Positions 60,076 through 60,449 of a stretch of 64,000 nt of DNA are shown piece by piece (position 1 is the stretch's first letter; the number at the start of each line of letters is the position of its first letter). The notes beneath the pieces were generated by a model that was not told the DNA's origin, made no database searches, and was given only the letters and a program-made list of their open reading frames with translations. Source of the stretch: Rufibacter sp. LB8 (GTDB taxonomy: Bacteria > Bacteroidota > Bacteroidia > Cytophagales > Hymenobacteraceae); the NCBI RefSeq assembly GCF_014876185.1, contig NZ_JADALJ010000001.1:496001-560000 (forward strand), given 5' to 3'. A program made the position numbers and the translations under genes.

Positions 60076-60165
60076 TTTATAAAGAAGAGCGGAGAGACAG
60101 GCTCAATGAAGCTCTAGCAACCTACTAAGAGGTAAGGTGCTAAGTCCTGATCCCAGATGACATAT
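60076..60165 (+). ncRNA. SAM-I (S-box) riboswitch
   Basis: The conserved S-box blocks occur in order: AGAGCGGAGAGAC near 60085, GGCTCAATGAAGCT and CTAGCAACC around 60100-60122, then AAGGTGCTAAGTCC around 60134-60147 and GATGA before 60161. SAM binding would repress the downstream met genes. The closing stem and the expression platform are not obvious: no terminator with T-run directly follows, but CCCAG (60152) can pair with CTGGG (60170). The Cys-rich ORF begins 30 nt later. Confidence 0.88.
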
Positions 60166-60194
60166 TGCGCTGGGGAATATAAATTGATACGAAG

Positions 60195-60332
60195 ATGGAA
60201 AACACCCACACTCCCACTTCTGACAAGTACAAGTCGCTGCCACGCGTAGCGCAACATGGTTACACCCTTTCTTTCTGCGCCACGCTGGAGACACGAATGC
60301 CCATGACGGGTATTTGTTGCTGTTGTCGCTAA
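60195..60332 (+). CDS. Cys-rich leader peptide, candidate attenuator ORF
   Basis: ATG at 60195, TAA at 60330-60332, 45 residues, beginning MENTHTPTSDK and ending FCATLETR then MPMTGICCCCR. Four consecutive Cys codons (TGT TGC TGT TGT) lie one codon before the stop. It sits between the SAM riboswitch and metY, whose product makes homocysteine or cysteine from O-acetylhomoserine and sulfide. Poly-Cys leader peptides sensing cysteine are known in actinobacteria; a similar role here is inference. There is no signal peptide, and the position just ahead of metY argues against a free-standing gene. Confidence 0.6.
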   Translation: MENTHTPTSDKYKSLPRVAQHGYTLSFCATLETRMPMTGICCCCR

Positions 60333-60351
60333 TCCCCAATTCCTGCATTTT

Positions 60352-60405
60352 CTAGGGTTTTCCGCGTTTCCGCGACCGGTTGCGGCTATGCGTACCTTTC
60401 CCTAG
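60352..60405 (+). promoter_or_regulatory. Nested stem-loop between leader ORF and metY
   Basis: CTAGGG (60352-60357) pairs with CCCTAG (60400-60405), GCGT (60364) with ATGC (60388), and inside is a hairpin CCGCGA-CCGG-TTGCGG (60370-60385). The duplicated TTCCGCG (60360 and 60368) allows alternative pairing with TTGCGG. A T6 stretch follows at about 60424. This could form a ribosome-position-dependent switch; the folding is by eye only. Confidence 0.4.
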
Positions 60406-60449
60406 TGTCTCGGTATTATCACATTTTTTAAAAGTAACCTTGTATTCTT

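Follow-up and report, generated by a model that had tools for sequence, protein, structure and literature searches.

A SAM riboswitch and a cysteine-run leader ORF ahead of metY-metX-hom in Rufibacter sp. LB8: a candidate nested two-signal leader that recurs in Bacteroidota

The window analysed here (a stretch of 64,000 nucleotides of the Rufibacter sp. LB8 genome) closes with three genes on the forward strand: metY, for an O-acetylhomoserine sulfhydrylase (60450..61784; NCBIfam TIGR01326, 684 bits), metX, for a homoserine O-acetyltransferase (61793..62848; the best family match, 339 bits, does not reach the model cut-off of 500) and hom, for a homoserine dehydrogenase (62827..64000; NCBIfam NF004976, 311 bits), which continues past the window end. 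They are preceded on the same strand by a match to the Rfam family RF00162 at 60074..60185. This scores 74.2 bits against a gathering score of 44.4 and is the only Rfam match in the 64-kb window to exceed such a score. By the family model the aptamer is an S-box (SAM-I riboswitch) and is predicted to bind SAM. The strands of its P1 stem are GATTTATA (60074-60081) and TATAAATT (60178-60185). Nine nucleotides separate the last P1 base from the ATG of a leader ORF of 45 codons (60195..60332, forward strand), whose translation, MENTHTPTSDKYKSLPRVAQHGYTLSFCATLETRMPMTGICCCCR, ends GICCCCR before the stop. Residues 41-44 of the 45 are encoded by four Cys codons in a row (TGT TGC TGT TGT; 60315..60326). 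The Rfam score, the translation and the NCBIfam matches thus bear out the order of features given in a preliminary description of this DNA: an S-box, a 45-codon ORF ending GICCCCR-stop, then metY-metX-hom.

Upstream of the riboswitch, TTTGG-N18-TACATTTG (60015..60045, forward strand) is a promoter-like site, judged from the sequence by what we take to be the Bacteroidota consensus (TTTG / TAnnTTTG). Between the leader stop and metY a large hairpin is predicted (60352..60405, forward strand; CTAGGG...CCCTAG with inner stems). There is no U-tract directly 3' of it in the window. When the 16 genomes of the genus are folded one sequence at a time, many show similar hairpins. Just before metY (about 60413-60439) the remaining 15 genomes share a strongly conserved box around TTTGTTCAATTTTTCAATTGTAACC, part of which is lost in the window.

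The 16 genomes are all those of the genus covered by a MetY search, that of LB8 included. The riboswitch, the reading frame and the Cys run before metY are kept in every one of them. The run has three contiguous Cys codons in two genomes (L285 and L286) and four or more elsewhere. The leader ORFs comprise 43-49 codons, the body of the peptide varies freely and gaps inside the ORF are, by eye, multiples of three. The search was extended to two further genera, here called Mucilaginibacter-like and Pedobacter-like from the similarity of their leaders to those of named records. Strong MetY matches were obtained in 39 of 41 and 36 of 40 genomes, respectively, and 30 loci were taken from each genus. 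A simple rule calls a riboswitch at all 60, and each of these loci has an ORF with a terminal Cys cluster, read by script in 58 cases and on re-inspection in L355 and L314. Three or more Cys fall within the last ten residues in 57 of the 60, and only two in L330, L358 and L362. The preliminary description had looked to relatives for the ORF and its Cys run upstream of metY, and had taken their absence as the outcome that would speak against a leader; both are present at the metY loci of all three genera (16/16, 30/30 and 30/30). On this comparative evidence the leader ORF is not due to chance.

A run of four Cys codons is by itself weak evidence, since 71 places in the LB8 genome match TGYTGYTGYTGY (9 for the reversed control). 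Thirty of the 71 places were fetched, and four of these lie within an ORF of fewer than 90 codons that ends no more than 10 codons after the run. These four are the metY leader, a leader ahead of cysH (see below) and two cases that overlap longer ORFs.

One genome per species was scanned with a gapped pattern (an S-box core, an ATG and, at fixed spacing, three Cys codons), which gave at least 120 loci. Among the 120 listed, 85 carry the pair of riboswitch and Cys leader: 74 that pass the simple S-box rule, each of which has an in-frame ORF with clustered Cys (74/74), and 11 added by eye. Rfam recognised an S-box in all 35 tested of the 85 (including the 11 by-eye loci) and in none of the 35 remaining loci, a perfect split that is informative because the pattern required neither a reading frame nor a nearby stop. 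By record title, and among the matches listed, all 85 pair loci belong to Bacteroidota. Their orders are Cytophagales, Sphingobacteriales, Chitinophagales, Saprospirales and Flavobacteriales, some of them presumed from general knowledge of the organism names. Four records with Bacteroidales-type titles among the 120 pattern loci listed (L042, L054, L057 and L094) have no S-box. Judged by record titles, the module of SAM riboswitch and Cys leader recurs, patchily, in at least five Bacteroidota orders. The leader of L112, a record titled Chitinophaga pinensis, is nearly the same as the one in a Flavobacteriales MAG (L084), so that the label of L112 may be wrong.

These 85 loci, together with 18 from the riboswitch survey described below (those with a Cys ORF by a strict rule), make up a set of 103 leaders. 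The gene behind them, identified by BLAST with reference proteins, is metY in 68 cases, metX in 15, cysH in five, an ATP-grasp gene in four and an antiporter gene in one; ten are without assignment, and in some of the 103 an additional small gene lies between the leader and that gene. A Pfam search with ten chosen proteins gave sulfite reductase, OsmC-like, AhpC/TSA, pyridine nucleotide oxidoreductase, YceI, TonB-receptor and ferredoxin-type matches. The YceI and TonB-receptor genes may not be the regulated ones.

Across the 103 leaders, counted from the end, Cys makes up a fraction of 0.59-0.88 at every one of the seven final positions and no more than 0.04 from the 16th on. Selection was analysed in 51 of them, aligned in six groups: Mucilaginibacter, Pedobacter, MKHT-type, Pontibacter with the window, Flavobacteriales and Hymenobacter (values are given in this order). 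In the Cys columns, which were picked as mostly Cys so that pN is lowered by choice, pN/pS is 0.14, 0.18, 0.17, 0.18 and 0.04, with no change at all in Hymenobacter; in the other columns it is 0.77, 0.61, 0.93, 0.77, 0.78 and 0.68. Given this effect of the choice of columns, it is synonymous exchange that provides independent evidence. Both TGT and TGC are found in 5/6, 1/5, 2/8, 6/7, 5/5 and 0/4 of the Cys columns, so that three groups show strong exchange, two show little and Hymenobacter shows none. Since synonymous Cys changes are few in Pedobacter, in Hymenobacter and in the cysH leader of the genus, RNA structure may also be selected. As judged from these alignments, the leader is conserved for Cys and not for its peptide, the body of which is near neutral and clade-specific.

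These features bear directly on the reading of the ORF as a functional small Cys-rich protein that binds metals or takes part in redox binding and is no sensor. Cys clusters could bind metals, and isolated leaders lie ahead of an OsmC-like gene and of an AhpC/TSA gene; however, a near-neutral, clade-specific peptide outside the Cys run, the position of the cluster at the very end and the lack of any NCBIfam match for the window's peptide make this explanation highly improbable. The ORF very probably encodes a cysteine-sensing leader peptide. Because, the start apart, the terminal Cys are the only clearly selected residues, the ribosome on the leader would report charged tRNA-Cys. The likeness to actinobacterial cysteine attenuators noted in the preliminary description finds comparative support in the TGT/TGC exchange, in the presence of such leaders before cysH, metX and sulfite reductase genes, and in a cysH leader that has no riboswitch.

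For Actinobacteria, a 2005 study predicted leader peptides with Cys runs ahead of cys operons; no conserved terminator hairpins were seen and Rho was suggested (PMC1262725). Ribosomes have been observed on Cys-run leaders of M. smegmatis (PMC4633059), and poly-cysteine ORFs, leaderless by the title of the paper, were reported in 2020 as cysteine-responsive attenuators (PMC8764745), a system termed translation attenuation by a paper citing that work. Those ORFs, from mycobacteria and further Actinobacteria, resemble the present one in being short, in having Cys codons near the stop and in lying ahead of sulfur genes. They differ in belonging to Actinobacteria and in being leaderless, and the portions of these papers considered here do not mention a riboswitch.

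The cysH leader of LB8 lies on the minus strand (G000:C1, about 2320270-2320350; loci L270 and L363). It is an ORF of 22 codons that ends CCCSSGCCCC, with its stop 73 nt before cysH (identified by NCBIfam), and a TAnnTTTG site is found upstream. By the simple rule there is no S-box at this leader. Of the 16 genomes of the genus that were searched, 14 yielded a cysH match; all 14 have this Cys leader, and the nucleotides of its Cys region are almost invariant among them. A possible GCAGC/GCTGC hairpin can be seen by eye. In the other genera of the family (18 of 25 cysH matches listed), the simple rule recognises an S-box at 16 of the 18 loci; in L381 the S-box core lies just beyond the stretch. 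The script found a Cys leader at 11 of the 18, many of them started by GTG. Looser inspection adds L384, and neither approach found one at L377, L380, L385, L387, L391 and L392. The SAM and Cys parts of the module are thus separable, since cysH has a Cys leader without an S-box in this genus and an S-box in its relatives. To judge from these loci, cysH, a cysteine-synthesis gene, keeps the Cys part alone in the genus.

The survey of the riboswitch itself covered 122 RF00162 members: 32 from the LB8 genome and its family, the 30 best matches of a phylum sample and 60 picked from those listed. It is not a random sample and was not selected for a Cys run; in one member (L164), located at the edge of a contig, the script was unable to read the aptamer. 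A Cys ORF, by the strict rule, follows 18 of the 26 riboswitches with a TATAAA-type P1 versus none of the 96 with another P1 (Fisher p 1e-15); among the 18, L018 qualifies by an internal ATG, the complete ORF beginning with GTG. By origin, strict Cys ORFs were found at 15 of the 32 riboswitches from the genome and family and at 3 of the 90 from the phylum sample, so that the pair has a patchy distribution beyond certain clades. The TATAAA motif is not absolute, because GATAAAT replaces it in some Pedobacter-like leaders.

Eight TATAAA-type riboswitches have no strict Cys ORF. In L028 there is a Cys ORF with a GTG start and in L008 a looser Cys cluster, while L187 has one Cys, L188 has two, and L184 and L186 have none in an ATG frame. 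In the other two, L194 and L224, P1 ends 11 and 9 nt, respectively, before the start of a gene (metX in L194). A gene start thus occupies the position of the leader in these two, which argues that the TATAAA-type riboswitch acts on start codons, and both S-boxes are apparently translational. Bacteroidota make little use of Shine-Dalgarno sites.

The aptamer of the window fits the S-box family model; unlike a usual S-box, it has no terminator platform and its P1 abuts the start of the leader ORF. With 9 nt from P1 to the leader ATG, the window S-box has no terminator/antiterminator expression platform, and since there is no room for a terminator, SAM most likely blocks initiation on the leader. 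From this anatomy, the P1 stem of the SAM-bound riboswitch, ending about 9 nt before the ATG, would prevent initiation, and at low SAM the 45-codon leader would be translated. Leader translation is probably gated by SAM. The combination of SAM and cysteine sensing in one leader, as first proposed, is supported comparatively, with the riboswitch probably nested on the leader start codon and not side by side with the leader.

The latter arrangement, in which riboswitch and Cys leader would act separately as independent tandem sensors with no gating of the leader, we consider unlikely. Two-sensor leaders are known: the attenuators of Salmonella mgtCBR respond in tandem to two signals in one mRNA leader (PMC3641672), and tandem SAM / B12 riboswitches form two-input gates (PMC9481103). 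The cysH leader, if functional, also works without a riboswitch. Against this, roughly 9 nt between P1 and the ATG leave no space for a terminator or any other expression platform, and among the 15 riboswitches of the family without a TATAAA-type P1, ten carry a canonical terminator no further than about 60 nt beyond P1, whereas five lie before metH. The mgtCBR and SAM / B12 systems likewise place two signals in one leader, but the signals are others, and the portions of those papers drawn on here describe no riboswitch that gates translation of an ORF sensing an amino acid. At Sinorhizobium metA, which has a SAM-II riboswitch, AUG1 shares the metA reading frame but is unused in the native context, and a terminator lies between AUG1 and AUG2 (PMC9373788). 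Here too a SAM riboswitch precedes a start codon and another control element follows; the riboswitch class is a different one and no Cys run is reported in the text considered.

In the gated arrangement that we prefer, a ribosome translating the leader at low SAM would respond to cysteine. If cysteine is scarce it would stall at the Cys run, shortly ahead of the stop codon, and metY-metX-hom would be expressed; if cysteine is plentiful it would finish and leave, and expression would be cut off. We infer this direction (low cysteine meaning on) because Cys leaders precede genes of sulfur assimilation (cysH, sulfite reductase). That the SAM riboswitch and the Cys leader form a real and widely recurring control device is very likely from the comparisons above. 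That they form a nested two-signal 5' leader, with metY-metX-hom on only if both SAM and cysteine are low, appears probable to us.

The cut-off itself was approached through the RNA around the leader stop. With short hairpins (-8 kcal/mol), terminators were found in 16 of 80 leaders (those of the 103 with a recognised gene within 260 nt) against 5% of shuffles; with hairpins of up to 90 nt they were found in 7 of 16 leaders of the genus against 28% of shuffles, and in 1 of 29 and 0 of 29 in the two other genera. Canonical S-box controls gave 13 of 15 in both scans. In the window, the scan with hairpins up to 90 nt detected no intrinsic terminator after the leader. An intrinsic terminator was rejected as the general switch on these counts, although one may act in some leaders of the genus, and in usually being without one the Cys leaders differ from a trp-type attenuator.

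Since intrinsic terminators are nearly absent in two genera, we favour Rho-dependent termination relieved by a stalled ribosome. Expression would be cut off by premature termination on the leader, which is rich in C, poor in G and unstructured, and on the RNA following its stop. Structure z-scores of the leader body are near 0 (mean 0.19 in the genus, 0.30 in the Mucilaginibacter-like and -0.29 in the Pedobacter-like set), with C/G fractions of 0.30/0.19, 0.22/0.13 and 0.19/0.14, respectively. Controls, which come from other taxon mixtures, gave 0.20/0.19 (P1 to gene of non-leader S-boxes) and 0.23/0.21 (downstream genes), that is, a C/G ratio of 1.05-1.10 versus about 1.4-1.7 in the leader body. 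Neither a C/G skew nor an absence of structure requires Rho. The stretch that follows the leader stop varies from clade to clade, which also speaks against this step, and a rut site was not predicted. Rho-dependent attenuation is known from tnaC. A cut-off of this tnaC-like kind is the leading candidate and the weakest step of the proposal, with a chance that we place somewhat below even. The complete hierarchy, in which the riboswitch decides on leader synthesis and the Cys-stalled ribosome shields the transcript from Rho, an AND of two starvation signals, is offered tentatively. A comparable step is known from the E. coli topAI uORF toiL, where ribosome stalling decides downstream Rho-dependent termination (PMC12121999); toiL differs in sensing antibiotics and in working through the ribosome binding site of its target gene.

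The main rival retains the same two sensors but has the stalled ribosome act, without Rho, by refolding of the post-stop hairpins and the Cys-run region. The first 90 nt after the stop are indeed structured in all three genera (mean z -1.45 in the genus, -2.47 in the Mucilaginibacter-like and -1.75 in the Pedobacter-like set), GCAACA, complementary to Cys codons, occurs after the stop in several Cyclobacteriaceae-type loci, and the short-hairpin terminators given above are somewhat more frequent than in shuffles. However, group alignments give different hairpins in different clades, for which reason a single shared RNA structure after the stop was rejected; RNAalifold returned 0.0 kcal/mol for the Pontibacter group and -0.4 kcal/mol for a Saprospiraceae group. 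The Pedobacter-like set (29 sequences) has an invariant stem, which for that reason says nothing on covariation, and a covarying hairpin in which four pairs are changed on both sides. The covariation of the whole structure is 0.247 versus 0.133 in shuffled alignments (reached by 0 of 500), but double-change pairs number 6 versus 4.3 (60 of 500) and pair types 12 versus 14.0, below 493 of the 500 shuffles. In the Mucilaginibacter-like stem four pairs are likewise changed on both sides, with 81.6% of cells paired and a covariation of 0.257 versus 0.166, but the stem slid by two columns scores nearly as high (76.4% and 0.245). The scarcity of long-hairpin terminators also counts against refolding, as does the open start of the downstream gene: the mean unpaired fraction is 0.61 (80 of the 103 leader loci) versus 0.45 inside genes. 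Because start regions are more open than windows within genes, sequestration of the metY start is not favoured and was rejected as the switch. Taken with these points, refolding seems to us a rather unlikely explanation.

The preliminary description knew of no precedent in Bacteroidota. None was found in the literature searched (titles and beginnings of abstracts, mainly of open-access papers), either for a Cys-run leader in this phylum or for an S-box followed by a Cys leader. Leader peptides in Flavobacterium and Bacteroides are mentioned in general terms (PMC9723704, PMC7366714), and the pairing of SAM riboswitch and Cys leader does not appear in the portions of PMC6429828 and PMC12452182 considered. 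If the proposal is true, Bacteroidota would gain, within that literature, their first recognised leader peptide for cysteine sensing, and the pair would be a natural case of a riboswitch controlling translation of a second sensor. The cysH leader without a riboswitch provides a built-in control, and cultured genera (Pedobacter, Mucilaginibacter and Pontibacter) allow direct testing. Short ORFs of this kind are easily overlooked by gene finders.

Two observations concern genes behind the leader. In one group of Bacteroidota a small protein of ~80-100 aa is encoded between the Cys leader and metX (L047:6003-6242, minus strand; also L034, L052, L101, L105 and L110); the one checked is without a Pfam match. 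In L013, L016 and two more loci an ATP-grasp gene stands behind an S-box and a Cys-run leader, a position that suggests a part in sulfur metabolism for its product.
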